In this document: in pieces, positions 4,444 to 41,201 of the stretch | How positions within the stretch are numbered: the first letter of the stretch is position 1 | Layout of the letters: every line of letters starts with the position of its first letter | Virus record (IMG/VR): IMGVR_UViG_3300046821_000110 | Coordinates: 1-41,879 of that record | Reading direction: 5' to 3' (one strand) | Length of the DNA stretch: 41,879 nt | Source of the DNA: a virus | Notes under the pieces: generated by a model | The model's database searches: none | Told to the model about the DNA's origin: nothing | Seen by the model: only the letters and a program-made list of their open reading frames with translations | Translations under genes and position numbers: made by a program

Positions 4444-5751
4444 ATGCCTATCACTTGGCGTAACGTGGAAAGTGATCCGACTCGTGGAGCTGCTGTGCTC
4501 TTCGAGTCGGCTCGCCGTGCCCTGAACGATGGTTTCACCGGCTTCAATGGAATCATCGACTCTCGTAATGAGGTGAACCAGCAGAACTGGGACACTCAAA
4601 AAGAGGTCAACACTGACCAGTTCCTTGATCGTCTGGCTCAGTACAAGACGCCTGAAGAGTTGGCGGCTGCTCAAGAGGCTGGCCAGCTTCAAGCATTGAA
4701 GGCTCAGTTCGGTGGTCAGATCGACCGTGATGCTGTGCGTGGTGCAGAAGCTGCCCAAGCAGATGTGCTGATGAAGCGTATTGCTGCGCAGAACCAGTAC
4801 GGTGACGACAAGATCAACCGTGATGCACGTCCGGATGCAGCAGTGTTTGATGACCTCGTGGCCGCAGGTAAGCTGAAAGAAGCAGCTGACTGGAAAGCCT
4901 CTCGGGTACTGGGCACTGATGAGTCCCCCTTCACAAATCGTCTATTAGAACGTGGTGATGTTCAGTTCAACCAAGACAACACTAAAAGCCAGTTGGCCAT
5001 CTCTCAGCGTCAACTGGGTTTGGATATTGCGCGTGATCAACGTGAAACTAAGGATTGGGAGGATCAGTGGGCTGAAACTACCCAACGTCGTGTGGCCATT
5101 GACCTTGGTGATCAGGCCCTGAATGGTGCCGCTGACTTCGCTAGTGCGCGCTCAGCCTACCTTACTTCTGCCAAAGAAAAGGGTCTTCGTGATGATGTGG
5201 TCAATGCTGGTTTAGAAGCCTTGCAGAAGTCCTATCAAACTCGCACTGGCCTGACTGCAGAGCAGGATGCACTGTTATCATCAGATAGTGAGCTGATAGC
5301 TATGACCAAATCTGCTGAGCTGGCAAAGGAACAGCTCACAAAGAATCGTTACAGTGACCCTAAAGCTACTAAGGTCACTGAAGACGAAGCCATTGCTAGT
5401 ATCTTTCCTCGGGTTAAAGGTGAAGAGGATGAAACCTCCAACCTGATCAAGACTCACCTGAAAACTTTCAAAGAAAAACATAAAGGCTCTTTGGAAGCTG
5501 CAGGTATCACTAACCTTGGTCCAGTAGTAGAACAAGCACTGAAAAGTTCTGGTGTAGATGAGGCCCTTTTTGGTGATGACACCATGGACTTTAATGGGTT
5601 TCAATCCAAAATGACCAATGCTCTCAGTGATTACGTTGCATACACCGAGTTGCGTAAACAAGTTGATACAGCATCCTCAAAAGCAGCAACCAAACGGATG
5701 GAGAAGCAATTGCAGATGATTCAGGGTAATATCTTGAAGAATCTGAAATGA
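4444..5751 (+). CDS. Helical internal virion protein (N4 gp51 position)
   Basis: 435 residues, highly charged and Ala-rich, predicted almost wholly helical, with no cysteine and no enzyme motif seen. It sits three bases after the preceding stop and 14 bases before the giant polymerase gene. The position matches N4 gp51, a virion protein encoded beside the polymerase. It could be a scaffold, an internal virion protein or an ejection partner of the polymerase; the sequence does not discriminate. GGGGGT lies about nine bases before the ATG. Confidence 0.55.
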   Translation: MPITWRNVESDPTRGAAVLFESARRALNDGFTGFNGIIDSRNEVNQQNWDTQKEVNTDQFLDRLAQYKTPEELAAAQEAGQLQALKAQFGGQIDRDAVRGAEAAQADVLMKRIAAQNQYGDDKINRDARPDAAVFDDLVAAGKLKEAADWKASRVLGTDESPFTNRLLERGDVQFNQDNTKSQLAISQRQLGLDIARDQRETKDWEDQWAETTQRRVAIDLGDQALNGAADFASARSAYLTSAKEKGLRDDVVNAGLEALQKSYQTRTGLTAEQDALLSSDSELIAMTKSAELAKEQLTKNRYSDPKATKVTEDEAIASIFPRVKGEEDETSNLIKTHLKTFKEKHKGSLEAAGITNLGPVVEQALKSSGVDEALFGDDTMDFNGFQSKMTNALSDYVAYTELRKQVDTASSKAATKRMEKQLQMIQGNILKNLK

Positions 5752-5765
5752 CTTGAGGATGTTTG

Positions 5766-8700
5766 ATGGCCCTTTTACCGACACTCCCTGGTATCAATGC
5801 ACCTATTGATCGTACTGAGCAAAAGTTAGACAAGTTGGAAGCTAAATCTGCTGCCAAAAAAATACTTCTTGCAGAGCGTTCTGGGATGTCGGGTGGGGCC
5901 ACAGTTCCTGATCCATGGAAAAATCATGATCGGGCTGTATTCTTGTTGGAGCAGGAAAAGCTCGCAGCAGATGCTCGTAATGAACAAGCAATTGTAAGCG
6001 ACGATGACCTGCACACGTTTTGGGGCAGTCGAACACAGGAAGGGGCTTCCATAGCGACAGGTGGTGCCCGTCTTGTTGGCGATGTAGCAAGTGCCCCGGC
6101 CACTGCATTTGCTGACGCACAACTGAGTGGTGTCAGTGATGAAATGCGGGCCTTGTATGATGTTGAACAGGGCTACAAGTCTCAAGTTGAGGGGCTGAAA
6201 TCGGCTGAAACAGCCCTACAATTCGATGTAATGTCGGGGAAACTGGGGCCAATTGAGGCTGCTGCACGTCGTTTGGAATTACGTAACCAGCAGAAAGCTC
6301 TGGTAGCCCCCGATACAGAAAAGCTAAAGGCACTAGATGTACGGCCTGAGCAACGTAATGTTGCCCAGAACCCTACTGGTGCTTTGGCCTTCGCCCCGTC
6401 TGACTATCAAGATGCGGGTCTGATTGAACAAGAACTCTCTCCTCGTGAACGTATCGAGGCGGCAAAAAACGCTTTGAAGTTCGCTGGCACTGTCGATAAA
6501 TCCATCGAAGGTATCACTGAAGGGGTGATAAACCCGCTCAAACGTGATGTCCTCAACGCCGATATGAATGCTTCGGTGGAAGCCAATAAGGCTTCATTCA
6601 CCGCAGCAAGTGCTGCATGGGATAAGGGTGATACTGGTTCTGCCCTACTCGAAACGGGTAAAGGCATTGCCGGTCTGGTTAAAGATTTTGGTGCCAATGC
6701 ACTGGATAACCCAGACGCTGCACTGGAATACATTGCAGAGAACGTACCCCAACTGGCCTTGGGTGCTGCAGGCAAAACCGGTCAGTTGATGATGGCTCAA
6801 ACCAACCTTGCCTACGGTGCAGACATCTACCGTAAAGGGTTGGAAGAATATCAAGCCAAGAATGAAGGCAAGCTGCCTACTCAAGCTGAAGCCACTGAAA
6901 TGCTTGGCTGGAGTTTGTCAGCCGCAGCTGCTGAACAGGTTGGCGACATGCTGACATTGAGTCCCTTAAAAGGGCCACTCAGTAAGGTAATGGGGGATGC
7001 GTTCACCCAAGTGAAAGCAGGGAAACTGGTAACAGCTGCCAAAGAACTTGGGCGTGTACCTGCTGCAGTAGCTTCCGGTGTTATTTCTGAAGCCCCAACT
7101 GAGGGGTATCAGACTGCAGTGGAAGAAAACCTCTCCAAGCTGAACACTGATTTCGATTTCAACACCATTGCCAAGGCAGCAGGTATTGGTGGGATCGTGG
7201 GTGGTGGATTGAAAGGTGGTATCGAAACGCTGGTACAGACCGGGGATATTGTTTCTGGTGGTGCATTAACTGCCCTAGGTAATCAGGCCGATTCCCTTAA
7301 AGACAAGGCTAAAGGTGTTGTGGATGCTGATGCAGCCAAGGTAGCGGCTTTTGAAGAGGCCAAGACCACAGGTGATGTGGATAAGCTGATCGACTTCAAT
7401 GCCGACACCTTCAACCCTACGGCTGCTATCACAGCCATGCACCACTACACCAAGACCACTGAAGACGACGTTGATCCAGAAGATTACGTGCAGTACGGGG
7501 AAGGTCTGGTTGGTGTAATGGAACAGCAACTGACTGTCAAAGAAGAAGCAGTCAAAGCCCTCCCTGAAGATGCCACTGAGACTGATCGAGAGGCACTGGT
7601 TCAGGACTTTGAAGCAACCCGGGAACAGGTTGCCAGCATGAAGCTAGCTGTAAAAAGCTGGCGTGATGAACTCAGTGGCCTGACCACTGTAGAAGACATC
7701 GACGCAGCTGTGGCCGAGGCAGATACCGACATCACCGAAGCCGATGAAACCGTTGTAGCAAAAGCCACTGAGTCCACCAGCAAAGTGATGACTCTAGCCA
7801 TGAATCGCTCCAGCAAAGTTACGCCTGAGCAGCTGGAAGCCTTGGCTTCCAACACTTCCAATGTGTTGAGTACTGAACAACGCTCTTTCCTGACCCGAGC
7901 TGCTGATGCCCGCCGTGCTATCAATGCCTTGAAGGATGTTGAAGGTGTAAGCAAGGAGGTATTCTCCGGGGGTAATGGCAACTTTGGCCTGAACGACTAC
8001 CAGAAGGACTTCGATACTGCGCACAAAACAGGTAACACCGAACAGGCTACTCGTGCTCTGAGTGAATTGACCCGGTTCACTGAAGGTCATCGTGCCAAAT
8101 TCAACCTGTTCTCTCGTGCCTTTGATGCCAGCGAAAAAGCCGGCGGTACCAAGACCTATTCGTTCCTGCCAGTGGGCAACAACACCGGTAAATGGGTTGT
8201 TGCACCGAAAGGTATGAGCTGGGATGCCGTGCGTAAAAAGGGTGGGGTAAACATCTCTGCACGGAACTCCGGCAACCTGCTCAACGCAGTAGAAATGGAA
8301 GTCAAAGCACTAGAAGCCTCGGCAGCTGAAATGTCTGCTGCTATGAAGATTGCTCGCCCTGTACGTGCTCAAGCCTCCTCTGCCACGAAGAAAGTACCAA
8401 AGCCTCTCCCGGTACAAACCCCGAAGGATGTTACTCAGCTGTCGGATGAAGAAACATCGGCACAGCCGGTAAGTGCTCCGAAGGCTGAATCGGTATCCGA
8501 AGAGTCTAAAGAGGTGGATGCCTTACAAGACCTGACATCTCGGTTGGACTCTATAAATGCTGTGGTACCCAAAGATTTGACAGACTGGGTGCGTGCTAAT
8601 GGTCGTGCGTCTACAGTAGCCTTGTTTGAGCGTCTGCTGGGTAATCCCATTATTCAGGCCATTACGGATGTACAACTCTTCACCCCTGAGAAGAACAGCA

Positions 8701-11700
8701 AACGCCCCGAAGCTGGCCTATATCACCCGAAATCTCGAATTATTCAGATCAACATCGCTGAATCTGCCCTGCGTCATCAGGCAGCAGGGCGTCAGCTGAA
8801 AGCTTCTAAAGTGGTAGACACCCTGATCCATGAGATGGTGCATGCCCTCACCTATGACCTGCTGGAAACCAATAAAGAGCTTCAGGCTCAGGTTGATCAT
8901 CTGCAACAGCAGGTACGCAACTGGATGAAAACCAAAGCGGGCAAAGCCTTGCCTGCTAATGTACGGGAACGGATAAACAATTCGTTGGAATCCCGGCATG
9001 AGTTCTTGACCTATGCGCTGACGGACAAACGCGCACAAGTGGTCTTTTCTCGCATCCCCGTAAAGAATGGCACTTCCGTACTACGTGAACTGGCAGACAC
9101 ACTGCTGCGTTTGTTGAACGAGGTGTTGGGTTCCCAAGCCGTACCGAATAGCGTACTGATTGAAGCCTTGAACCTTACCGATGAACTGCTGACCCCGCTT
9201 AACGATAAAGAATCCACCCCCCAACTGAATGCCACGTCTGACAGCTCACCAGAAATTGGGGCACTGGAGCAGAAAGAGACACCGGCAAGCCAAGATGCCG
9301 ACTTCGAGGAAGAAGTCAGTAAGGCAGAAGCAGACCTGAAAGCGGCTGAACAAAAGCAAACTGAAGAAGCAGACGCAGCTGAGGCAGCCCGCCGTACTCA
9401 ATCATGGGTAGATGGCCGTGTAGCGAAGACGGAGGCCCGCAAGTCTGATTACCTGGGTCAAACCGCAGGTGTGTTGACTGCGTTCAAAGAAGCTGTGGTA
9501 GATCGCATTACTGCTAATCTTTTCCGTGAAAAGAATCTGCTATCTGCCTACTTCAAACAGGTGGCTCAATCCCTGCATTCCACTACCCCACGTCCGTTGG
9601 TGGCAGTGTCGAATTTCATGGCCCATGTAAAAGTGGGAGACATCCTCATGGATGAGTTCCTGAGCCATGGTATGACCGAAGCTCAAGCCCCATTGGTGGC
9701 CCTGTTCATTCAAGCCCATGACAAGTTCGTGGAAACCATCAACAAGGTGATTCCCCCTTCGCTGAACAAGAAAGGGCTGCCTAACAAGGACTGGTATTTC
9801 CGTGAACCCGTGGAGTTCTTCCGTAATGAAGACGGCAAGTTCGATGCAAACTTCCTGACTGCTATGGCTGCTGGTGCCTTTGCTCTGCTGGCAGAAGAAG
9901 TAAATACCCCGATGTACCGTACCAACGAAGAAATCGCCATGATGTTGGGTCTCCCTAAAGAGACTGACGTTGGACGTGATGTGCGTAACCGACTGCGCCC
10001 TATGCTGGCCCGTCGTTTTGCTATCGAGAACAAACTCGGGCAGTTCATTACTGATTCGTTGGGCATCAAGATCAAAGACGAAAACACCCCTGTTGGTGAG
10101 TTGGAGCGTCTACGTGCCCATCTGGGTGCCCATGCCTTGAACATGCTAGTAGAGCTGAATCTCCTTCAACTGAATGAAGTAGACATTGGTACCTATGCAG
10201 GCAAGCCAGCTGATTCTGTCAATGAAGAAGACGCCTCTGAAGATGAAGGGGCTGCTGGCGATGACACCATCAACAAGTTCCGTACTGACATCTTCGTGTC
10301 AGTACCTCGTGATGGTAAGAAGCTGATCGAACCCCTGGAACGCATCAAGAGTGTGTCCAAAGGTACCGGTGGTGTACTGGCTACCCTGTTCGGTATGGAA
10401 AGTGCCCAACAGATGCCCCTGCTTGAGCCACCAAAAGTGACTCAAGAAGACACCAATGGTGGTCTTCAGAAAGTCTCCAAGTCGGTTAAGCGGGCAATGT
10501 CTAAGTTTGCCAGTCGGCAGATGTCGTTCCGTCCTGCCATGACCATGCTGATTAGTGCTGAACAAGGCTTCCTTGAAGACATTGCCGGTATCGAGAATGT
10601 CGAGAAACTGGTAATGCACGCAGAGCTGCGTGAGTCTGCTCAGGCTGCGAACGATAACCTGCGTCGTGAACTGGAACAGCTGCAAGACCTGTGGATGCAC
10701 CTGAGTGCCCTGGGCACCCCATTCCGTAACTTCTTCTCCCTGCCTGACCAGTGGAAGAATAGCCGTATCGGCTACACCGGTTCATGGGCCAACATGCAGA
10801 CCAGTAAGATCGCACGTTTCCTCGTATCCCCTGTGGGTTGGGAGTCTGAGGTGGTGATTGATGGCTCTGCCCCGAACAAGAATCAAACCAGCTTGGATAA
10901 TTTCAAGCTGCGTGTGATGGAGGCTTTGGGTGCCAAAACCGACAGTCAGTCGGATGATGTATCGCTGGCCAACTGGGACAAGATGACCAACGACTTGGAT
11001 ACAGCAAAACACATTGTTGATGCTGTAGCAGCCCTACGCCCGGTAGTAGCTCTGCCTGTTGAACAGCAGAAGCTGTCGAAAGAAGCACAGGCAACCATTG
11101 CCAATGCAGTCTTGAAGTCCAAGACAAAGCTGCACGGCTTCGAGGCATTGGTTGCTCTGGCTCAGTATGAGAACGCTAAAGCAGCAGGGGAATCCAGCTT
11201 CAAAGCCATTGTGACTTCTGAAGTGGATGGTAAGACCAACGGCCCAATGCTGAGTATGTGGCTGCTGGGTGTGATGGACAGTACCTTCGCCGCCATGGGT
11301 GGCTTCTACACGCATGTGAGTCAAGTGCGCAGCTTCGGTCAATGGAAGCCGGGTAACTACGACCTGTATGAACGCACTGCTTCGAGTCTGATTGGGCGTC
11401 TGTTGAGTCGCGGCTTTGAACAGAAGTCGCTGGACGCCCTGTTCAATCTTCTTGGTTCGCCGTTGAACGAAGACAACAGCATCTCTAAGGCTGGGCGTGA
11501 TCTGGTCAAAAATCCATTGACCACCCTCATCTACGGTTCTGGTCTGGAAACCACCGTGGAAAAGATGACCGATGTGTTCATCGAGAACGTCTACAAGACC
11601 ATGGGTCAGATCGCTGAAGGTAAAGCCTACGGTGCTCAGAAACTCACTGGTGTTGCTGCGTGGGCACAGTACCAAGAAGACCTGAAGGAGATGTCAGGGA

Positions 11701-14700
11701 TGTCTCAATACCTGTTCCCGGGTGAACTGGAACAGGCTATGGAAACACCTATGGAAGCCGCAGCACTGAGTAATCTCCGTGAAGAGTTCAAAGAGTCGAT
11801 AGGCAAAGCTGTTAAAGACACCATCAATGAAGACTTTAAGGGCTACATGGACGCCCGTAAGCAGATGGTGCGTCAGGCTAACGGTGTCTGGACTATGTAC
11901 GACATGGTTCGTACCAAACTTCTTGATGACCTCACTGAACAGCTGATGGACTGGGGTGAAATTGATTTCCAGTGGATCACTGTTGATACCGATAAAGTGA
12001 TCGGCAAAGACAAAAAAGGTCGTCCGGTATTCGAGAAAAAGAAAGTACGCCAACCGCTGCGTGAACTGACTCCAGCTGAAAAAGCTCCGGCCCTGGAAGC
12101 TATCAAGGACATGGAACCGCGCATCAACACGGCTCTGTCCAAGCGAGATGGTCAATTGGATGCTGGCATCTACGTGTCCAAGTCGGCCCGCAAAGCCTCT
12201 AACAGCCCTACCCACACCACGGATGTGAAAGGGGTGGTCAACGGTGAAAAAACCAACCACAAATCCAAACCTGTAATGCGTGTGGAGTCGAACCCAGGCG
12301 TATCCATTATGGCCAACGGTGTGCAGTCTCTCGATGGCAACACCATCGTGGAAGTACTGGCTGCCTTGAATTTGGTGGGGGTGCATGACGCTGTACTCAG
12401 TGCTCTGCATGATGCGGCTGCTGCCGGCCAAGCCATGAACCAGCAAGTGATGGATATGCTGCTGAATCACTCGCTGCCCCGTGAAAGTTACGAATCGCTG
12501 GAGCGTACTCTGAAGGGCTTCGCGGCCTACATCGAACAGAATCCGGGTGACATCAGTAAGGAAGCTCTAGGGGAACTGCTCAACTCCCAGAAAGAAGACC
12601 GTAAAGACCCCGTGTCATTTACGATTCTGGTTCAGCGTGCAGCCCGTTTTGCCCATGAAGCGGACTACAACCGTTTGGATGGTCTGAGCCAATTGGCTGT
12701 GGTGGATCAATACACCATCGCTGCTGGTATCTTCGATGTACCCAACAGCTTCAACAATCTGGCTGCCAAGAAACGGGATGCTCTGTCTCCGAAAATCGAC
12801 CCGGCTTTGTTGGCAATTGCTGCCCAGTTGGACGAGATCGTCTTTGCCAAGAAGGTTCCCGTAGCAGCAAAAACTGCTGCTAAGAAAACCCGTAGTACTC
12901 AGGTAACTGACTTCGACCTGGATGCCCTGCTGCAAACCGAGGGGATCACCGCCAATGAAGTAGCGGCCAAGCTGTTCAACAGCATTGGTACACCTCAAGA
13001 CGGTGACACCATGGGTAAGCTGTACCGGGAAATCCTGAAGCGCGGCATCAAGCAGCTCCAAGGTCTACCGATTGTCTATGCCACCTCGGATTCCCAGATT
13101 CCTGAGAAAGCCAAGGATGCCTATGGTTGGTATCACGTTGATGCTGATGGCAAAGCTCATTTGGGTATTCGTGGCACTTCCATGGGTGGGTCTGGGGTGA
13201 CTACTGAGCTGGTCGTGCATGAAATTCTGCACGCCATGGTGGCCTGGATCATTGACCAAGCTGAGAAAGGTCATGGTAGTGCTGAAGTACTGGCTGCTGT
13301 GGCTGATCTGGAAGCCCTACGTAAAGAGCTGAAGCCTCTACTGGAAGCTGAGCACAGCGAAGCAGTCAGTACCTTGCAAGAGTTCGTGGCATGGGGGATG
13401 ACCAACCCTGCTTTCCAGAAAGCCATGGCTGCTGTGCCTATGGTGGAAAAAGGTTTTGCTGCCCTGAAGAACAAGGCTCAGCAATTCTTCCGTGCCATCT
13501 CCACCATCGTGTTCGGTGTCCGTGGGCCTGCCATTGAAACCGCCCTGAGTATATTCATGGCTCGGGTATCGGTGATCGTTGGTGAGTCGGAAACCACTCA
13601 AGCAACTCAAGCACCGGGCACTTATCGTATGGCTGCCCACAACTTCAATGCTGTGGGCCTGTTCAACGGACTGGCTGCACAAGGTAACGGCTACACCGAT
13701 CCCTACCTGCAAGAGAGAGTGGCGGGCCTCATGTCTACTGTCGTGGATGCGGTAGGTGGTCCTTTCCAGCAGTTCTATCAGCAGATCGCTCAAAGCGCGA
13801 CTACCCCTGCTGGTTTGGTAGCCAATGCTCAGCAGCAGGGCTTGATGCCGGTCACAGCTGGTCTGCGTACCAGTGGCTTTGCTCTGGGTGACCAGCAAGC
13901 CTATGCGATTGAAGTGCTCACTGAGACCTTCAAGGCTATCCAACGGGACACCACAGGGGCTGCCCAACAACAACTGCTGAAGCTCTTTAAAGAGACTTCT
14001 AAGCAAGTGACTGCGGCTGATCTGGGTGGTCAAGCACAGTGGGATGCCATCTTTGGTGCTGAAGCCATCGACACCGATGGGGATTATCTGGCTCGCTTTG
14101 CTGCTATGGCTCTTGCCTACCCGCCTCTGGTGGCCAAGATGGGCTTTACCACCCAAGAGGTAGTGCGGGAGTCCACCACCCTGTATGGGCGTCTGGTGGC
14201 CTTCTTTGAGGGCATGATGAACGCACTGTCTAAGGCAGCCCACAAGGCGTATGCCGGTCAACGTGCTGATGCCAAGCTGGATACCCTGACCAAACGTCTG
14301 GTACTGCTGGAAGCTAAGTATCAGCTGCGTCAGCAGCCGTCGATGATGAATGATCTGCTAGATGGTCTGGAAGACAAACTAACCGACGTGGGTGAGTCTG
14401 CGCGTAAAAAGCTGATTGAACTATCCCAGTCCTCGTACCTGGGTGGTGCAAATAATCTGTACCTGAAAACCGCCGGCAACGTAGTCAAGATGGTGGCTGA
14501 ACAGCGTGTTGGTTACATGCTGGATAACGTAGAGAAAATCTACAACCGCTCGGTGAAGGGTCAAATGGGCATCTTGGGTTCGCTGTTCAATGAACTGCGG
14601 GGCACCCGTGACACCAACATTATGGGCCGTGCCTTGATGATCAAGAACAAGTCGCGTGAGAAAGAACGTGAGGACATCAATCGGGACATTGCGAAGTTAC

Positions 14701-17018
14701 TGGCTGATCCGTTCAAAGAACTATCCAAGAAGGAATCTGACAACATCACCAAGGTGCTGCTGCGTACTGACGTGCAGGCGCTGTGGGGCACCTTCACGGA
14801 TGTGGAAATTCGTGAGCTGTTGTCACGTCCTGCCAAGCTGAATGCTGCCATTGTCCAGTACCAGAATCAGTTGCCTGCTGCACTGAAGACCTACTACGAA
14901 AACCAATCGGACTTCACTGCATTCATGCTGGCTGTGGGCGAAGACAAGGGCGACAACACCCAGTTGAATATCCACAACATCGCTGACCTGAGTGGCACAA
15001 AACAGGCTGGCACGCTGAGCGATGTAGAGGTTGAAGCCAACATCAAAGTGTTGGACGTGTTGGTTACCCTGAAAGCCCTGAAGTTCACCAATGAAGGTGA
15101 TCGGCAGAACATGGCAAGCCTGATGCTGCGCGAACCAGAAGGCGTTAAGACGGCTCTGCTGATGCACCGTGGTCTGATGGAAAAGGCACGTACTGAGACT
15201 TTCGTGGGTACTGAGCGCCTGATGCGTAAAGGCTACGTTCCGGAGATTCACAACCCCCATGTGGAGTTGGTTCCGGTGCCAGAGGGTGCTATGGAGGATT
15301 ACATCAAGCAGGGCTACAAGTACCACTACCACTTGCCTGCTGATCCTGCTGACGTGACGTATGAGCCACGGGTACTGATGTCGGTTGAGAAGATGACCCC
15401 ACGTATTGTGTCGGGCACCTTGTCTATCACCAGCATGCAGTCTCAGGGTTCTGCAGTTCACAGCGGTCTGGAGATGTACGACTTCAGTGGGGTGAACACG
15501 TTCAACCAACACACCAATAAGCGTATCGCCAAGAAGCGTGAGCAGCATATTGATCGGTTGTTCAAGGCCCCACATGGTAAAAACCTGTTCGATATGCAAG
15601 TCACTCGGATGACTCCAATCTCCAATCCGAATGGTGAGATGGTGGGTTACCGCTACATGATGAGCCACGAAAACCGTGACATCCTCCTTGAGCGCAACAA
15701 CAACTTCGCACAAGTGCTAGCTGAGATGGCTTCTACCGTCTTCGACAAGCAAACAACCCCGGTACATAACCGTGAAGTACTGACTGCTATCAAAGATCAG
15801 TGGGAAATCGAGCAATCTGTTAATCCTGAAGCCTTCCTGTTGGTAGGTCTGGACAGTGCGGATAAGGATTTGCGTGAGCGTTACCTTGCAATCCCCTATG
15901 AAACTCGCAAAGACATTGCGCGTATCTGGGGTGATAACAACATGATGATTCGTCGTGATCTGATTGATCTGCACTTGGGATACCGTAAGGCATCTTTGAC
16001 TGATCTTCTGACCGACAATGGTAAGCATGAAGGAATAGTGAAAGACTTCTTCCTGTGGTTGGCTAAGGATGTATTCAACATCAGCCCCAAAGGTCTGCGT
16101 CGAATCCTGAAGGCTGAGAACATCATCATGGCAGTGAACCAGGAGATCAAAGACTTTTTCGTAGTGAAGTCCGGTGTTACTACCTTCTGGAACATTGTCA
16201 GCAACCTAACTCTGTTGAAGCTGTATGGGGTTTCAATTCAGGAGATTGTGCGCTCTCACAAAACAGCCCTGATGGGTGCTCGTGATTGGCAAAAGCATGA
16301 CTCAGAGCTTCGTCGCCTGAAGGCAATGAAGGATTCTGGTCTGGTCATTGGCAGTTCTTCCGAGATGGATCAGCAGATTGCTGTACTGGAAGATCAGATG
16401 GCACGGAACCCAGTCCGTGAGGTGATGATGATGGGCATGATGCCTACCATTGTGGAGGATATGGATGCAGCGGAAGACCCGTATTCATACAAGAGTTATG
16501 CAGCTCGTAAGGCTGAAAAGGTAACTCAGTACATTCCGGGTTTTGTTAAGCAGGGTGCGAAGTGGGTATATATGACCCATGACACTGGCCTGTATCAGAT
16601 CATGAGTCAGGGAGCGCAGATGAGTGACTTCGTGGCACGGTATACGCTGTTTGAACACCTGAAGACTCGGCGTAAAAATCCGCTGGCTACAGGTGAAGCA
16701 GCTATCCAAGCTATTGATGCCTTCATCAACTACGACTTGCCGTCTAACCGTTGGGTGCAGTACGCCAACGACATGGGTATCGTGCGGTTCACCAAGTACT
16801 ACTTGCGGATTCAAGCTGTACTGGCTCATCTGTATCAGAACAACCCTGCTCGGGCACTGTTCTTGGCCACCATTGAAAACTACTTCAGTGGTCTACAGAC
16901 GGTGATGGACTCTTCCTTGTGGAACCGAATCGGTTCCCCACTGGAGGGTGGCCCATTCGATGCGCTGGAAGCTATCGAAAGTGGGCTGGTAAGCCGAATG
17001 CTTGGCAAGGTGTTCTAA
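5766..17018 (+). CDS. Giant virion-encapsidated RNA polymerase (N4 gp50 type)
   Basis: 3,750 residues from ATG 5766 (GAGG seven bases upstream; a TTG at 5763 is also in frame). The centre holds a single-subunit RNA polymerase of the T7/N4 class. Around R1667 a TxxGR-like region runs into NMQTSKIARFL. Motif A is SEVDGKTNG with D1821. Motif B is R1911-x3-K1915-x7-Y1923-G1924, an exact match to RxxxKxxxxxxxYG. Motif C is GVHDAV with D2208. The spacing resembles N4 mini-vRNAP (D559, R666/K670/Y678, D951). Zincin-like HExxH motifs flank the core at 1022-1026 (HEMVH) and 2485-2489 (HEILH), each followed by an EF[LV] motif. The N-terminal arm and the C-terminal arm of more than 1,200 residues lack known motifs and probably serve packaging and ejection. 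In N4 the enzyme is injected with the genome and transcribes early genes from hairpin promoters. Confidence 0.93.
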   Translation: MALLPTLPGINAPIDRTEQKLDKLEAKSAAKKILLAERSGMSGGATVPDPWKNHDRAVFLLEQEKLAADARNEQAIVSDDDLHTFWGSRTQEGASIATGGARLVGDVASAPATAFADAQLSGVSDEMRALYDVEQGYKSQVEGLKSAETALQFDVMSGKLGPIEAAARRLELRNQQKALVAPDTEKLKALDVRPEQRNVAQNPTGALAFAPSDYQDAGLIEQELSPRERIEAAKNALKFAGTVDKSIEGITEGVINPLKRDVLNADMNASVEANKASFTAASAAWDKGDTGSALLETGKGIAGLVKDFGANALDNPDAALEYIAENVPQLALGAAGKTGQLMMAQTNLAYGADIYRKGLEEYQAKNEGKLPTQAEATEMLGWSLSAAAAEQVGDMLTLSPLKGPLSKVMGDAFTQVKAGKLVTAAKELGRVPAAVASGVISEAPTEGYQTAVEENLSKLNTDFDFNTIAKAAGIGGIVGGGLKGGIETLVQTGDIVSGGALTALGNQADSLKDKAKGVVDADAAKVAAFEEAKTTGDVDKLIDFNADTFNPTAAITAMHHYTKTTEDDVDPEDYVQYGEGLVGVMEQQLTVKEEAVKALPEDATETDREALVQDFEATREQVASMKLAVKSWRDELSGLTTVEDIDAAVAEADTDITEADETVVAKATESTSKVMTLAMNRSSKVTPEQLEALASNTSNVLSTEQRSFLTRAADARRAINALKDVEGVSKEVFSGGNGNFGLNDYQKDFDTAHKTGNTEQATRALSELTRFTEGHRAKFNLFSRAFDASEKAGGTKTYSFLPVGNNTGKWVVAPKGMSWDAVRKKGGVNISARNSGNLLNAVEMEVKALEASAAEMSAAMKIARPVRAQASSATKKVPKPLPVQTPKDVTQLSDEETSAQPVSAPKAESVSEESKEVDALQDLTSRLDSINAVVPKDLTDWVRANGRASTVALFERLLGNPIIQAITDVQLFTPEKNSKRPEAGLYHPKSRIIQINIAESALRHQAAGRQLKASKVVDTLIHEMVHALTYDLLETNKELQAQVDHLQQQVRNWMKTKAGKALPANVRERINNSLESRHEFLTYALTDKRAQVVFSRIPVKNGTSVLRELADTLLRLLNEVLGSQAVPNSVLIEALNLTDELLTPLNDKESTPQLNATSDSSPEIGALEQKETPASQDADFEEEVSKAEADLKAAEQKQTEEADAAEAARRTQSWVDGRVAKTEARKSDYLGQTAGVLTAFKEAVVDRITANLFREKNLLSAYFKQVAQSLHSTTPRPLVAVSNFMAHVKVGDILMDEFLSHGMTEAQAPLVALFIQAHDKFVETINKVIPPSLNKKGLPNKDWYFREPVEFFRNEDGKFDANFLTAMAAGAFALLAEEVNTPMYRTNEEIAMMLGLPKETDVGRDVRNRLRPMLARRFAIENKLGQFITDSLGIKIKDENTPVGELERLRAHLGAHALNMLVELNLLQLNEVDIGTYAGKPADSVNEEDASEDEGAAGDDTINKFRTDIFVSVPRDGKKLIEPLERIKSVSKGTGGVLATLFGMESAQQMPLLEPPKVTQEDTNGGLQKVSKSVKRAMSKFASRQMSFRPAMTMLISAEQGFLEDIAGIENVEKLVMHAELRESAQAANDNLRRELEQLQDLWMHLSALGTPFRNFFSLPDQWKNSRIGYTGSWANMQTSKIARFLVSPVGWESEVVIDGSAPNKNQTSLDNFKLRVMEALGAKTDSQSDDVSLANWDKMTNDLDTAKHIVDAVAALRPVVALPVEQQKLSKEAQATIANAVLKSKTKLHGFEALVALAQYENAKAAGESSFKAIVTSEVDGKTNGPMLSMWLLGVMDSTFAAMGGFYTHVSQVRSFGQWKPGNYDLYERTASSLIGRLLSRGFEQKSLDALFNLLGSPLNEDNSISKAGRDLVKNPLTTLIYGSGLETTVEKMTDVFIENVYKTMGQIAEGKAYGAQKLTGVAAWAQYQEDLKEMSGMSQYLFPGELEQAMETPMEAAALSNLREEFKESIGKAVKDTINEDFKGYMDARKQMVRQANGVWTMYDMVRTKLLDDLTEQLMDWGEIDFQWITVDTDKVIGKDKKGRPVFEKKKVRQPLRELTPAEKAPALEAIKDMEPRINTALSKRDGQLDAGIYVSKSARKASNSPTHTTDVKGVVNGEKTNHKSKPVMRVESNPGVSIMANGVQSLDGNTIVEVLAALNLVGVHDAVLSALHDAAAAGQAMNQQVMDMLLNHSLPRESYESLERTLKGFAAYIEQNPGDISKEALGELLNSQKEDRKDPVSFTILVQRAARFAHEADYNRLDGLSQLAVVDQYTIAAGIFDVPNSFNNLAAKKRDALSPKIDPALLAIAAQLDEIVFAKKVPVAAKTAAKKTRSTQVTDFDLDALLQTEGITANEVAAKLFNSIGTPQDGDTMGKLYREILKRGIKQLQGLPIVYATSDSQIPEKAKDAYGWYHVDADGKAHLGIRGTSMGGSGVTTELVVHEILHAMVAWIIDQAEKGHGSAEVLAAVADLEALRKELKPLLEAEHSEAVSTLQEFVAWGMTNPAFQKAMAAVPMVEKGFAALKNKAQQFFRAISTIVFGVRGPAIETALSIFMARVSVIVGESETTQATQAPGTYRMAAHNFNAVGLFNGLAAQGNGYTDPYLQERVAGLMSTVVDAVGGPFQQFYQQIAQSATTPAGLVANAQQQGLMPVTAGLRTSGFALGDQQAYAIEVLTETFKAIQRDTTGAAQQQLLKLFKETSKQVTAADLGGQAQWDAIFGAEAIDTDGDYLARFAAMALAYPPLVAKMGFTTQEVVRESTTLYGRLVAFFEGMMNALSKAAHKAYAGQRADAKLDTLTKRLVLLEAKYQLRQQPSMMNDLLDGLEDKLTDVGESARKKLIELSQSSYLGGANNLYLKTAGNVVKMVAEQRVGYMLDNVEKIYNRSVKGQMGILGSLFNELRGTRDTNIMGRALMIKNKSREKEREDINRDIAKLLADPFKELSKKESDNITKVLLRTDVQALWGTFTDVEIRELLSRPAKLNAAIVQYQNQLPAALKTYYENQSDFTAFMLAVGEDKGDNTQLNIHNIADLSGTKQAGTLSDVEVEANIKVLDVLVTLKALKFTNEGDRQNMASLMLREPEGVKTALLMHRGLMEKARTETFVGTERLMRKGYVPEIHNPHVELVPVPEGAMEDYIKQGYKYHYHLPADPADVTYEPRVLMSVEKMTPRIVSGTLSITSMQSQGSAVHSGLEMYDFSGVNTFNQHTNKRIAKKREQHIDRLFKAPHGKNLFDMQVTRMTPISNPNGEMVGYRYMMSHENRDILLERNNNFAQVLAEMASTVFDKQTTPVHNREVLTAIKDQWEIEQSVNPEAFLLVGLDSADKDLRERYLAIPYETRKDIARIWGDNNMMIRRDLIDLHLGYRKASLTDLLTDNGKHEGIVKDFFLWLAKDVFNISPKGLRRILKAENIIMAVNQEIKDFFVVKSGVTTFWNIVSNLTLLKLYGVSIQEIVRSHKTALMGARDWQKHDSELRRLKAMKDSGLVIGSSSEMDQQIAVLEDQMARNPVREVMMMGMMPTIVEDMDAAEDPYSYKSYAARKAEKVTQYIPGFVKQGAKWVYMTHDTGLYQIMSQGAQMSDFVARYTLFEHLKTRRKNPLATGEAAIQAIDAFINYDLPSNRWVQYANDMGIVRFTKYYLRIQAVLAHLYQNNPARALFLATIENYFSGLQTVMDSSLWNRIGSPLEGGPFDALEAIESGLVSRMLGKVF

Positions 17019-17023
17019 ATGAC

Positions 17024-17050
17024 AAAGGCCCAAGGATGGGCCTTTTTGTT
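17024..17050 (+). terminator. Rho-independent terminator after the RNA polymerase gene
   Basis: Stem AAAGGCCC with GGGCCTTT, loop AAGGAT, then TTTTTGTT. It ends the long rightward virion operon just before the convergence zone. Confidence 0.88.
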
Positions 17051-17054
17051 AGGT

Positions 17055-17150
17055 GATGGGATCGACGGACAATCTTCGTGCAGTCCCTACGGTGAACCCG
17101 TAAGGCCCCAGAGAGCTTTTCCTACCTTTGGCCTTCAGGCCGATCCCATC
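17055..17150. other. Structured intergenic element closed by a 10-bp perfect stem
   Basis: GATGGGATCG (17055-17064) pairs perfectly with CGATCCCATC (17141-17150) and encloses 76 bases. The interior holds further short hairpins: GGAC/GTCC, TACGG/CCGTA and GGCC-TTCA-GGCC. Read on the minus strand, the middle contains CTGGGG, TTAC, GGTTCACC and GGGACTGC in the same order as the promoter region near 26170-26203. It could be a small RNA, a processing or protein-binding site, or a decayed promoter. No open frame of note occupies it. Confidence 0.55.
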
Positions 17151-17155
17151 TAAAT

Positions 17156-17236
17156 CTGCATTGGGGAGAACCCTACCCGCTAACCACCACAGTTCGCTTG
17201 CTACCTACTCAATGGGTAAGGTTCTCTCCAATGCAG
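17156..17236. repeat. Long imperfect inverted repeat (22 bp paired)
   Basis: CTGCATTGG then GGAGAACC on the left pairs with GGTTCTCT then CCAATGCAG on the right (one G-T pair). After a single C/A mismatch it continues with TACCC/GGGTA. In all 22 of 23 positions pair, around a 35-base loop (17179-17213). This is far longer than a normal terminator stem and has no T run on either side. It lies between the ends of two converging operons. Confidence 0.75.
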
Positions 17237-17252
17237 CCCAGTTATTCTGGGC
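17236..17252. repeat. Short hairpin beside the long inverted repeat
   Basis: GCCCAG, loop TTATT, CTGGGC. It abuts the long inverted repeat and lies nine bases from the last stop codon of the leftward replication block. It might help end leftward transcription, although neither strand has a convincing T run. Confidence 0.5.
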
Positions 17253-17260
17253 CACATTGG

Positions 17261-17473
17261 TTACTCTTCTGGTCTGTTTTGTTCGGAACGGAACTCAAGG
17301 TATTCCTTGATTCCTTCCCAGACCAAGCCCAGCACTATGCCGATAAAGCAGAGCATCATAACGATGAACCCGACGATACCGATTAGCCAGCCCATTACCA
17401 TGCCTGCCGCGTAGCACGCGATGGTAGCTATCACGGCACACATGAATAACAGCAGCCCCTTGAGGGCCGCCAT
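17261..17473 (-). CDS. Small two-helix membrane protein
   Basis: 70 residues. Two hydrophobic helices (about 5-30 and 31-53) are followed by an acidic tail (EYLEFRSEQNRPEE). Its ATG overlaps the stop of the upstream gene (TAATG), so translation is coupled. It is the last gene of the leftward replication block. No family function is recognised. A membrane protein at this place might act on the host envelope or in superinfection control, but nothing in the sequence proves that. Confidence 0.6.
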   Translation of the reverse strand: MAALKGLLLFMCAVIATIACYAAGMVMGWLIGIVGFIVMMLCFIGIVLGLVWEGIKEYLEFRSEQNRPEE

Positions 17474-17816: not shown

Positions 17817-18383
17817 TTACGCCTTCAATAGCGGTAACGCTTGTAGGAACGGATTGGAATGGATACCAGCTTGGATGGCTCCGATGGCATCAGCCATGTG
17901 TTCAGCCTTCGCTTCACTGATCTTTTGTGCGCCCTTCTCTGTGTAGTAAGGCCACGAAGCAGCAGGATGCTGACTTGTAGCCCACTGGATCATCTCTTGC
18001 TTGGTGGCAGTCTTCCTGCCTACGGTAGCCATCTTCACTTCGGTCGGAGTGACCTCGAAGAATGGAATACCAACGGCTCTCAACGATCCAAGCACACCCA
18101 CACAGATACCGTAACTGGCCATGGCTCGCGCTGATTGGCTCCCTACGGGAACTTCAGCAAAGATCACTTGAGCTTGCTTTGCAAACTCCACGGCAGCTTT
18201 ACATAGCTGGAATGCTGATTCGAGGTCAGAGCTGTTCTGCCTGACCTGTTTGCCAGTCGGAAGCACTGGCTGAATGACTCGCAGCGTTTTCATGCTGAGA
18301 GTCATGGTGTCGGTATCTAGGGTGCCGCAAGCGACACCCCAGTTCCGGAGTGATGGGTCGAAGCCCACTACCCTGAGCAACAT
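17817..18383 (-). CDS. RuvC-like Holliday-junction resolvase
   Basis: 188 residues with the RNase-H-like fold of RuvC nucleases. The first acidic residue is D9 in VVGFDPSLRNWG, the second is E77 in VIFAEVPVGSQ, and the C-terminal acidic pair lies in EAKAEHMADAIGA (E161, D165). These are the metal-binding positions of the family. It would cut branched DNA made during replication and recombination before packaging. It lies in the same leftward operon as SSB and the RecA-like ATPase, consistent with that role. The ribosome binding site is weak, and it starts four bases from the upstream stop, so coupling is likely. Confidence 0.88.
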   Translation of the reverse strand: MLLRVVGFDPSLRNWGVACGTLDTDTMTLSMKTLRVIQPVLPTGKQVRQNSSDLESAFQLCKAAVEFAKQAQVIFAEVPVGSQSARAMASYGICVGVLGSLRAVGIPFFEVTPTEVKMATVGRKTATKQEMIQWATSQHPAASWPYYTEKGAQKISEAKAEHMADAIGAIQAGIHSNPFLQALPLLKA

Positions 18384-20236: not shown

Positions 20237-20266
20237 TGCGATTTCCTTTAAAGGAGAGGTGTTGGC

Positions 20267-20292
20267 AAAAAAGCCCCCAAATGGGGGCTTTT
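20267..20292 (-). terminator. Rho-independent terminator after ssb
   Basis: Stem AAAAGCCCCC with GGGGGCTTTT and loop AAAT, followed leftward by T residues. It falls between ssb and the TerB-like gene, although all genes here run the same way. Either readthrough feeds the genes beyond it or they have their own promoter in the 30 bases that remain. Confidence 0.85.
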
Positions 20293-20312
20293 CTGTAGAC
20301 AGTGCTCAGCTA

Positions 20313-34849: not shown

Positions 34850-35167
34850 ATGTATACCTACCAACAACAGACTAAAGATGTGCTCGATTACGATGTCATC
34901 ATGGATGATTGGTTTGCTGAAATCCCCGGTGATGACATTCAATCGGTAACCATCACAGTTACCAGTGTTACTGGGCTGGATTTGGCACTTGTAGTAGGGC
35001 CAGCGCCTCACCCAGAGTACGTTCTTATGGGTGCCACCCCTACACGCTTTAAGGTGTGGATCGGTGGTGGTACTGAGTTTGAGGACTACATCGTGACCTG
35101 CTTGGTTAAGACTGAGCAGGATCGAACCTTCGAAGTTGAGTTCAAAATTAAGGTGCGGAATAAATGA
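34850..35167 (+). CDS. Ig-like beta protein, fibre adaptor type
   Basis: 105 residues. The sequence VLDYDVIMDDWF, then SVTITVTSVTGL, then KVWIGGGTEFEDYIVTCLV and FEVEFKIKV fits a known phage family of small Ig-like proteins (usually V-W-L-x-G-G-T followed by Y-x-V) encoded just before tail fibre genes. It may act as an adaptor or fibre base. The stop overlaps the next start (ATGA), so it is coupled to the S74 fibre. Confidence 0.65.
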   Translation: MYTYQQQTKDVLDYDVIMDDWFAEIPGDDIQSVTITVTSVTGLDLALVVGPAPHPEYVLMGATPTRFKVWIGGGTEFEDYIVTCLVKTEQDRTFEVEFKIKVRNK

Positions 35168-37044
35168 GTAACCTTGGAAACTTTGTTCAGTGCCGTTTTG
35201 TAACTCCACTGGCTATCGGTGCAACGGAGATGACTCTCTATGCTGCCGATGCCCCCTACAACCTGCCCCCTGCTGAGGGTGGTTTGCTGGTGCTGTGTGA
35301 CAGTCCCGGCAATCCCTCTTTCATTGAGGTGATCTCGTATACCTCCCGTACTGGGTTGAACCTGTCGGGGGTAGTACGGGGTCTTGAAGGGACTACTGCT
35401 CGTGCATGGTCTGGCTTTGCCTACTGCTTCCAGTCGATGTTGGCTGGCGACTATGCAGCTGACATGAATGCCAAAGAGAATGCCATTACTGCTGGTACTG
35501 CTGCGCAGATGTGGTTAGGTAACAAGACTTGGGCATCTGTACTGAGCCAGGTGCAGGGTACTTTGCTCACTGGTTTGAGCTTGGCTACTGGCACGGCCAT
35601 TACTGCAGCCGACACTGTGTTGTCAGGTTTGGGTAAGCTCCAGAAGCAGATCACTGATGCTGCTACCAATCTGGCAGCTAACGTGCGTGCTGTTGCTTTA
35701 ACTGGTTACCTGGCAGGTAGTAACACGGCACTGGCAGCAACGGACACTATTCTGGCTGCCATGGGCAAGTTGCAAGGTCAGCTTAATGCGCGTGCGCCTT
35801 TAACTGGTGAAGGTACTTCTGGTTCCTGGCCTATTTCGGTAACAGGAAATGCTGCGCGTGCCCGTCCTCAGCGATCTGATAATGCTAGTTGGGACCTCTA
35901 CTGGAGTAACCCAGGTGGTCAACCAACTTATTACTTAGGTAGTACGGATGGGGCTACCGTACAGCCATATGCCATTGGTGTAATGAATGTTGGCTCTGCT
36001 ACCAAGTTGGCGACGGCTCGGACAATCAATGGTGTGCCTTTTGATGGTACAGCCAACATCACTATTGCGGCAGGTGAGACAGGTCGGCTGCCGTTAACTG
36101 GTGGCACGTTGACTGGTCGCCTAAACGGTACTAGCTGCGGGATGGTTGGTACAGGCAACGACTACAGTAGCGGAGCCTACGAGGTTATAGGCAATGGCGC
36201 CTCTAATACGGTCTTCCCTACAATTGGCTTCCATCAACCGAGTGCGTACGCCTCCAGCTTGCAGTTGCGTGGTGCCTCCGACTTTCGCTTCTATGCTCAA
36301 GGTGCAGCAGCTTACGCTAACGTGACTGCTAACATTTTCTACGGCACGCTGTCAGGCAACGCTTCTAGCGCCTCCTCTGTACCGTGGTCAGGCGTATCAG
36401 GTAAACCAACAACGCTTGGGGGTTACGGCATTACCAACGGCTACGCGATGGATGGCGTGAACACCGGCTGGTTTCGCAGTTACGGCGGAAACGGCTGGTA
36501 CAACCAAGATTACGGTGGTGGCATCCATATGACGGATTCCACTTATGTTCGCGTCTACAATGGTAAAGCCTTCTACTGCGCCGGTAATGAGATTGTCCTT
36601 GAAGGGACTAGTCCTACATTACGGCTTTATGACACCGACAATGCGATAAATCGCTATGTTCACGCAAATGGCGGTACAGTCGGCTTTCTCAGAAGCGATG
36701 GCAACTGGGGCTTTTATAACGACAACTCAGGTAATACTTACTCTGTCGGTAACGTGACTGCTTACTCTGATATTCGCCTCAAGACTGATATTGAAGTAAT
36801 TCCAGATGCTCTGGCGAAGGTGATGAAACTACGTGGCGTAACGTACACACGTATTGATTCTGGTGAACGGCAGACAGGTGTCATTGCACAAGAGATCAAA
36901 GCAGTGCTCCCGGAGGCTGTTATGGTTGGCGCTGACGAAGACGCAACTTTGTCGGTAGCTTATGGCAACTTGGTGGGTCTGTTGATTGAAGCCATTAAAG
37001 AACTGAAGGCTGAGGTTGATGTGTTGAAGCAGGGGGCTAAATAA
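35164..37044 (+). CDS. Tail fibre with C-terminal S74 intramolecular chaperone
   Basis: 626 residues. The N-terminal region is probably particle-binding (about 1-105). Repeat-rich stalk elements follow (TGLSLATGTAITAADTVLSG, AATDTILAAMGKLQGQL, then ARTINGVPFDGTANITI). A Tyr/Gly/Asn-rich distal part includes GWFRSYGGNGWYNQDYGGG. The C-terminus is a peptidase S74 domain: YSDIRLKTDIE with cleavage serine S535, then GVIAQEIKAVLPEAV and a coiled-coil end. S74 domains drive trimer folding, then cut themselves off, which would release about 92 residues. This is the best candidate for the main receptor-binding fibre. Confidence 0.88.
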   Translation: MSNLGNFVQCRFVTPLAIGATEMTLYAADAPYNLPPAEGGLLVLCDSPGNPSFIEVISYTSRTGLNLSGVVRGLEGTTARAWSGFAYCFQSMLAGDYAADMNAKENAITAGTAAQMWLGNKTWASVLSQVQGTLLTGLSLATGTAITAADTVLSGLGKLQKQITDAATNLAANVRAVALTGYLAGSNTALAATDTILAAMGKLQGQLNARAPLTGEGTSGSWPISVTGNAARARPQRSDNASWDLYWSNPGGQPTYYLGSTDGATVQPYAIGVMNVGSATKLATARTINGVPFDGTANITIAAGETGRLPLTGGTLTGRLNGTSCGMVGTGNDYSSGAYEVIGNGASNTVFPTIGFHQPSAYASSLQLRGASDFRFYAQGAAAYANVTANIFYGTLSGNASSASSVPWSGVSGKPTTLGGYGITNGYAMDGVNTGWFRSYGGNGWYNQDYGGGIHMTDSTYVRVYNGKAFYCAGNEIVLEGTSPTLRLYDTDNAINRYVHANGGTVGFLRSDGNWGFYNDNSGNTYSVGNVTAYSDIRLKTDIEVIPDALAKVMKLRGVTYTRIDSGERQTGVIAQEIKAVLPEAVMVGADEDATLSVAYGNLVGLLIEAIKELKAEVDVLKQGAK

Positions 37045-40993: not shown

Positions 40994-40998
40994 ATGAG

Positions 40999-41023
40999 AA
41001 AGCCCCCTACTTGGGGGCTTTTT
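40999..41023. terminator. Bidirectional terminator between converging operons
   Basis: Stem AAAGCCCCC with GGGGGCTTT, loop TACTT, T run on the right and A run on the left. It ends the rightward genes and, from the other side, the leftward operon whose last stop codon lies inside it. Confidence 0.88.
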
Positions 41024-41201
41024 CTTTGTGTGGATTCACCATGTCCACAGGGAGTGGAATGCCTTTGGCCAGCAGCCAGATGAACCAGCGGTTGTTGACC
41101 TGCTGCTTGGTGTACAGCTCACCTTTACGGGTGACATTGATGCCCGGAAAGTATTTGACGTGCATGGCCTCAAAGGGGTCTCGCAGACGATCTAAAGGCA
41201 C
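41007..41201 (-). CDS. Small protein of unknown function
   Basis: 64 residues from GTG 41201, with GGAG five bases upstream. Contains YFPGINVTRKGELYTKQQVN then WFIWLLAKGIPLPV, a compact basic domain with no known family. It starts two bases after the upstream stop. Last gene of the leftward operon, ending in a terminator. Confidence 0.55.
   Translation of the reverse strand: MPLDRLRDPFEAMHVKYFPGINVTRKGELYTKQQVNNRWFIWLLAKGIPLPVDMVNPHKEKAPK

Follow-up and report, generated by a model that had tools for sequence, protein, structure and literature searches.

The stretch of viral DNA analysed here, all 41,879 nucleotides (nt) of IMG/VR record IMGVR_UViG_3300046821_000110 (hereafter the window), carries an 11.3-kb plus-strand open reading frame (ORF) for an N4-type virion RNA polymerase (vRNAP, N4 gp50-like; PHROG 2206, 1587 bits), and to its right a minus-strand block encoding RuvC, ssb, primase, exonuclease, ribonucleotide reductase and thymidylate synthase. 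Because of the vRNAP and this minus-strand middle block, we assign the window to a Schitoviridae (N4-like) phage. The late vRNAP gene and the end of the middle block converge on a gap at 17019-17260, and it is this gap that concerns us. We believe that 17156-17251, read on the minus strand, is probably a structured RNA that occupies the 3' end of the middle transcript, and a divergent member of a family of phage elements, here called H-P, in which a short hairpin (H) abuts a long-range stem (P) closed over a cargo; we put the probability of this reading at about 60%.

Structures in the gap and their conservation

As a preliminary description of this DNA had proposed, no credible gene lies between the vRNAP stop codon (17018) and that of a 70-amino-acid ORF (17261), and the structures it had placed in or beside the gap (a 10-bp stem, a stem paired at 22 of 23 positions, a 6-bp hairpin and a terminator hairpin) can all be found in the sequence. 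Its judgement that this zone is the strongest unexplained structure in the window is borne out as regards inverted repeats: the 23-nt stem, P, scores 26.0, the highest of any ungapped inverted repeat in the window, against at most 22 in 12 whole-window shuffles, while 1000 shuffles of the 242-nt zone gave scores up to 23, none reaching the observed stem. A chance origin of the long stem, which we considered, is ruled out by both sets of shuffles. Read as the plus strand, P has Watson-Crick pairing at 21 positions, with a single G.U and a single C.A, and the stretch 17150-17262 folds with a z-score of -6.1, whichever strand is taken. Where we depart from the preliminary description is in the division of the parts. 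The 6-bp hairpin at 17236-17252 exists, but is better read as a 5-bp hairpin, H, abutting the long stem, since relatives keep exactly that form; and the parts of what had been taken for one zone are present but do not make one unit, the module closed by the 10-bp stem being separate from the rest.

Relatives were gathered by a protein search with RuvC, which led to 80 viral loci. One of these, L002, has a zone identical to that of the window. The nearest distinct relative, L003, is 78% identical in the vRNAP C-terminus and keeps both the terminator hairpin T1 and the 23-pair stem; here H has changed from CCCAG/CTGGG to CCTAC/GTAGG by two double, compensatory substitutions, and P is altered on both arms at pairs 19 and 22. 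With G.U counted as paired, the minus-strand reading leaves one of 23 pairs unpaired in each of the two, in both cases an A.C at pair 10, while the plus-strand reading gives one mismatch in the window and two in L003, at other pairs. The few wobble cells on the minus strand (U.G at pair 18 in the window, G.U at pairs 4 and 20 in L003) become C.A on the plus strand. A more distant relative, L080 (46%), has the hairpin CCTGG-GUAA-CCAGG, a stem of 19-20 pairs and a T1-like hairpin directly after the stem. The preliminary description had staked its structure on conserved or covarying pairs among relatives. L003, the nearest of them, shows both, and the signal is very strong across the wider family discussed below.

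T1, whose stem and T-run we read by eye as an intrinsic terminator and the end of the late transcript, is kept in L003 and L080; it was not listed by an automated terminator scan. On the minus strand it is located 3' of the long stem. The sequence CCAATG/CATTGG occurs three times (17156-17164, 17228-17236 and 17255-17260), giving the start of the P 5' arm two alternative partners. L003 and L080 both retain CCAAT, L003 with a compensating change, and the three-copy arrangement could be a folding switch.

The 10-bp closing stem of the remaining module is perfect; taken alone, it is weaker evidence: a perfect 10-bp stem appears in 3% of zone shuffles and in 0.5% of module shuffles. The module folds with a z-score of -3.9 on the minus strand, compared with -2.1 on the plus strand. 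L003 lacks about 17051 to 17153 as a single piece, the whole closed module being gone, and we therefore regard it as a separate accessory piece. No homologues were found among the fetched loci, and a genome scan with a 20-mer of the module was also empty. This 95-nt module could be neutral debris.

Table 1. Features of the gap and of its borders (positions in the window; sequences as minus-strand RNA)
Feature	Position	Strand	Remarks
vRNAP gene	5763-17018	+	stop codon is the left border of the zone
T1	17024-17050	.	hairpin 17024-17032/17037-17045, then T5 on the plus strand; terminator of the late genes, by eye
Closed accessory module	17055-17150	-	10-bp closing stem (17055-17064/17141-17150), three arms within
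P, 3' arm	17156-17178	-	
Cargo loop inside P	17179-17213	-	35 nt; 37 nt in L003, about 100 nt in L080
P, 5' arm	17214-17236	-	sole minus-strand mismatch A.C, pair 10 (17227/17165)
H	17237-17251	-	CCCAG-AAUAA-CUGGG, zero gap to P
CCAAUG segment	17255-17260	-	can pair with the start of the P 5' arm, extended hairpin of 14 bp
Last middle-block ORF, 70 aa	17261-17473	-	no PHROG match; stop codon directly adjoins the element
RuvC-like resolvase	17817-18383	-	PHROG 159; anchor for finding relatives

Elsewhere in the window, strong GC-rich hairpins with T-runs at 20254-20307 and 40996-41024 are candidates for ordinary terminators. Past the middle genes, a plus-strand block includes a protein of 626 amino acids (35164-37044) with matches to long tail fibre and tail fibre families in its C-terminal part.

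The H-P family

Comparable elements lie at the same place in other N4-like phages. Post-vRNAP zones were taken from 63 loci and reduced to 50 non-redundant ones. On the middle-gene strand, 22 of the 50 have a hairpin that ends 0-3 nt from a long stem, against 1 of 50 dinucleotide-shuffled zones; the mirror arrangement occurs in 11 zones and once in the shuffles. In these other phages, as in the window, a short hairpin is followed at zero gap by a long-range stem, there of 16-22 pairs, on the middle-gene strand. Many related zones open with a classical terminator, and some contain tRNA-like remnants. Zones such as those of L013, L028, L031, L022 and L016 often hold two or three tandem modules with differing cargos and hairpin classes, which suggests module gain and loss. 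In phage N4 the matching neighbourhood includes gp47-gp49, the stop codon of vRNAP and, on the middle strand, four predicted tRNA genes (ARAGORN places tRNA Asn, Ser, Thr and Pro between gp47 and gp48, at 4452-5131 of the N4 record), compared with three N4 tRNA genes in the published account (PMC3715699).

The strict form of the family's hairpin, first seen by eye and with regular expressions in N4-like zones as TGACA-NNNNG-GARAGA-CNNNN-AC, belongs to a 28-nt signature, TGACA-NNNNG-GARAGA-CNNNN-ACYATCA. A pattern with fixed flanks and loop and a free stem retrieved 109 stretches of viral contigs; all five stem pairs are intact in 77 of the 86 distinct strict sites, a reversed control has no match, and the strict motif, present in 0-2 copies per record, has the same orientation at every locus that also holds vRNAP or RuvC. 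The ACYATCA that follows the hairpin opens a long-range stem whose partner lies 27-170 nt or more away, and at 88 of 93 sites this stem outscores a reversed-sequence control. Across the family, H has 95.2% paired cells and a covariation of 0.822, against at most 0.208 when slid, and P has 94.9% paired cells, with 13 of its 16 pairs varying on both sides; these pair counts carry no correction for shared ancestry, and the slid controls retain the relatedness of the sequences. We also considered TGACA-N16-ACTATCA as a sigma-70 promoter and rejected it: the base before TGACA is unconserved, and a promoter needs no covarying spacer.

The imperfections of P are as regular as its pairing. Pair 10 is unpaired in 15 of 47 stems, pairs 12-16 almost never, and among 61 distinct stems, with G.T and A.C penalised equally, mismatches concentrate at pairs 10 and 11. 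Outside these two positions, read on the middle-gene strand, G.U outnumbers A.C by 56 to 15 (p = 1e-6), and it is therefore RNA of the middle-gene (minus) strand on which selection acts. At pairs 10 and 11 the same ratio is 0 to 15, and these positions thus retain a real mismatch, in many cases A.C. A second hairpin class in the same phages, CCGAYT-NNNNCC-CGTAA-GGNNNN, has the pair-10 mismatch at nine of nine sites, which are mutually related. A recurrent trailer, GAATGCGCAGGCTGATGCGC (or TAATGCGTAGGCTGATACGC, ACGCGCATAGCGCACC), stands directly after the long stem in L009, L102, L149, L176 and others; it is a further small hairpin and may be part of the element. Several GGAAAGAC-loop hairpins occur in one intergenic region of Stenotrophomonas phage BUCT708, at about 1000-1600, near phage regulator genes.

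Across the family a conserved shell encloses a cargo that is free to change. This cargo ranges from 5 to 359 nt, with a median of 61. T-arm-like sequence is found in 6 of 60 elements and in none on the control strand, and one cargo (in L097) matches the Rfam tRNA covariance model. In folds of the tRNA-bearing members that we looked at, the acceptor stem starts at about pair 10, and thus the weak point coincides with the boundary between shell and cargo. In Xanthomonas phage FoX2 the element stands ahead of two predicted tRNA genes.

The strict motif is found in dozens of phage contigs, most of them without the N4 polymerase; vRNAP was not seen in 20 of 22 other carrier contigs (many of which are fragments), and the family therefore extends beyond N4-like phages. 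No strict motif was found in plasmids, and the sole bacterial match to the long-stem DNA pattern, a single one in Pedobacter, is chance-like. Lone strict motifs lie 15-50 nt before ribosome-binding sites in L105 (-168), L120 (-2872), L125 (+3925), L137 (+1384) and L159 (+4317), that of L137 preceding a thymidylate synthase-like ORF, and in L111 and L179 the motif is upstream of ORFs that we take from their sequences to be capsid-like and tail-tubular-like. An Rfam Burkholderiales-2 RNA lies near a strict H-P element in L168 (7259-7332).

By its architecture, the family has a short hairpin immediately 5' of a long-range stem with 15 or more pairs, on the strand that codes for the middle genes. 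The element in the window has this architecture, its CCCAG-AATAA-CTGGG hairpin abutting a 23-pair stem with a score of 26.5, where the next best arrangement in the window scores 15.4. The family's mismatch at pairs 10-11 is frequently A.C and never G.U; the window has it as A.C at pair 10, as does L003, and the pair-10 rule was derived without use of the window. The polarity of its G.U pairs, in the few cells available, agrees with the minus strand. Neither the window nor L003 carries the sequence signature of the family, and membership therefore rests on architecture; on that footing we consider it quite probable that the window holds a divergent, signature-free H-P element. Its cargo, a 35-nt loop without a T-arm, gave no Rfam tRNA match.

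The H-P elements apparently constitute an undescribed family of phage RNA, as judged from Rfam 15 and the open-access literature. With Rfam 15, at gathering and at permissive thresholds, the window and some 40 carrier or relative loci gave no match to the element other than the tRNA in L097, the other hits being tRNA, unrelated or weak. Four common versions of the hairpin are absent from the open-access papers searched, and a BLAST of the zone against a phage collection gave no match. The LUZ7 and N4 records show only genes, terminators, tRNAs and vRNAP hairpins, and the LUZ7/LIT1 paper mentions terminators and vRNAP promoter hairpins only (PMC3715699).

Interpretation and alternatives

How might such an element work? 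As we picture it, the middle operon would yield the RNA as the last part of its transcript, the stop codon of the operon's last ORF directly adjoining the element. The 5-bp H would stack without a gap on P, which itself consists of nine pairs, the A.C mismatch (pair 10) and a further thirteen pairs that close over a small cargo loop. The shell (H, the nine-pair lower helix and the weak point at pairs 10-11) could then act as a leader-trailer processing or protection stem, in which a helix of two turns with a weak point at the boundary would let a nuclease or an RNA-binding protein trim or hold the cargo. This last step, which we draw by analogy, is tentative. Of the four options offered by the preliminary description, that of a stable or structured RNA is supported, on the minus strand, by the covariation and the G.U polarity, while the replication or packaging function has found no support.

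Several observations weigh against an H-P element as we read it. The window carries neither hairpin signature (TGACA with a GARAGA loop, or CCGAYT with a CGTAA loop): the hairpin loops are AAUAA in the window, GAGA in L003 and GUAA in L080, and a regular-expression search returns no strict site in the window. Its stem starts with CTGCATT, where that of the family starts with ACYATCA and finishes with TGATRGT. Its subfamily comprises only three known sequences (window/L002, L003 and L080), and the L080 stem lacks the pair-10 mismatch. About half of the 50 N4-like zones lack such an element, and the virus family can therefore do without it. Strict hairpins are sometimes found with no long stem, ahead of the ribosome-binding sites of ordinary genes, a finding not expected from a pure cargo-shell model. 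Finally, a promoter-like site was not found near the element.

It is unlikely, in our estimate, that the hairpins are instead bidirectional terminators or a roadblock between the late (+) and middle (-) transcripts, or exonuclease stops at 3' ends. Their convergent position would suit such a role, as would T1, with its GC-rich stem and T5 on the plus strand retained in L003, and the classical terminators at the opening of many related zones. Neither P nor H, however, is followed by a T-run on either strand, and the terminator scan lists none of them; a roadblock does not require that the loop sequence or the place of the mismatch be fixed, or that G.U pairs favour one strand; and the same element is found away from convergent ends, in tRNA clusters and 5' leaders. 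The barrier between converging polymerases suggested by the preliminary description is possible, but leaves the fixed loop, the fixed pair-10 mismatch and the tRNA cargo of the family unexplained.

A cis element like HK022 put, in which adjoining stem-loops of nascent RNA bind the polymerase and alter downstream pausing or termination, seems to us improbable. It would account for two adjoining stem-loops under strong constraint on both sequence and structure, a description that fits putRNA itself (about 70 nt, two stem-loops; PMC9378689), and some copies of the H-P element do lie in 5' leaders or before tRNA clusters. But the N4-like element stands at the very end of its operon, where little is left to antiterminate, N4 middle genes are transcribed by a T7-like polymerase (PMC3715699), which counts against this explanation, and 5-359 nt of cargo between the arms is unlike put.

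We give very little credence to function at the level of DNA, as a cruciform or single-strand hairpin for replication or packaging or as a hairpin promoter of the kind used by N4 vRNAP, for which 4-5 nt hairpins with a 3-nt loop are predicted in LUZ7/LIT1 (PMC3715699). H is likewise a 5-bp hairpin, but H loops are 4-6 nt and not 3, the position is the 3' end of the middle genes, 20 of the 22 other carriers (again, many of them fragments) have no visible vRNAP, records hold only 0-2 copies, and the G.U:A.C asymmetry singles out one RNA strand. Neutral debris, that is, tRNAs in decay or mobile fragments that gather in a permissive gap, their stems left by recent duplication and inversion and not maintained by selection, is for P and H already contradicted and very improbable, since compensatory changes and G.U polarity demand selection on pairing and the hairpin loop is kept in distant phages, even if zone contents vary widely among relatives, the 95-nt module is missing in L003 and tRNA-like remnants occur in some zones.

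If the H-P family holds, a structured RNA that lies outside Rfam, with a defined signature of 28 nt, very strong covariation and a fixed mismatch, is common to dozens of phage contigs, and its carriers include culturable phages such as FoX2. We see about even odds for a broader proposal, in which these elements would be phage RNAs of a new class: a hairpin of specific sequence, stacked on a nine-pair lower helix, would form a shell that is portable and has its fixed weak point at pair 10, its cargo interchangeable and including tRNAs, its modules carried by unrelated phages and gathering at the end of the N4-like middle operon, and the window would hold a divergent copy that has kept the geometry and changed the sequence. 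Such a class looks like a general phage means of packaging small RNAs, tRNAs included, in a common shell. In this context, the window suggests that geometry may outlast signature, and that a sequence-based search would miss such copies.

Comparison with known systems

Set beside known systems, the H-P element shares single features with several. The N4 vRNAP promoters come from the same virus family and, like H, are 5-bp hairpins, but they have a 3-nt loop and stand before early genes (PMC3715699), whereas H loops are of 4-6 nt; the hairpin in the window, with a loop of 5 nt and a place at the 3' end of the middle genes, does not have the form of such a promoter. The put element of HK022 is also phage-encoded and has two adjoining stem-loops (PMC9378689), but it lacks a large variable cargo and lies downstream of early promoters, whereas the window has its element where an operon ends. 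YrlA and other bacterial Y RNAs, the tRNA mimics bound by Ro60, resemble the H-P element in their long end-to-end stem and, for some members, in a tRNA-like domain inside it; they differ in that the elements give no Rfam match to YrlA, most H-P cargos are not tRNA-like and the cargo in the window is a 35-nt loop. A TROVE/Ro60 gene was found in none of 30 carrier records. The boxB site of lambdoid phages, bound by N protein, has a 5-bp stem and a short purine-rich loop resembling GARAGA, but in H the stem sequence is free to vary, and the loop in the window is AAUAA. The R sites of phage T7, which are RNase III signals, and the leader-trailer stems of rRNA have a helix of about two turns with a weak point near one turn, closing over RNA, as does the H-P element. 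A fixed abutting hairpin with a set loop distinguishes the H-P element from RNase III signals, and any likeness in cleavage would be one of analogy.
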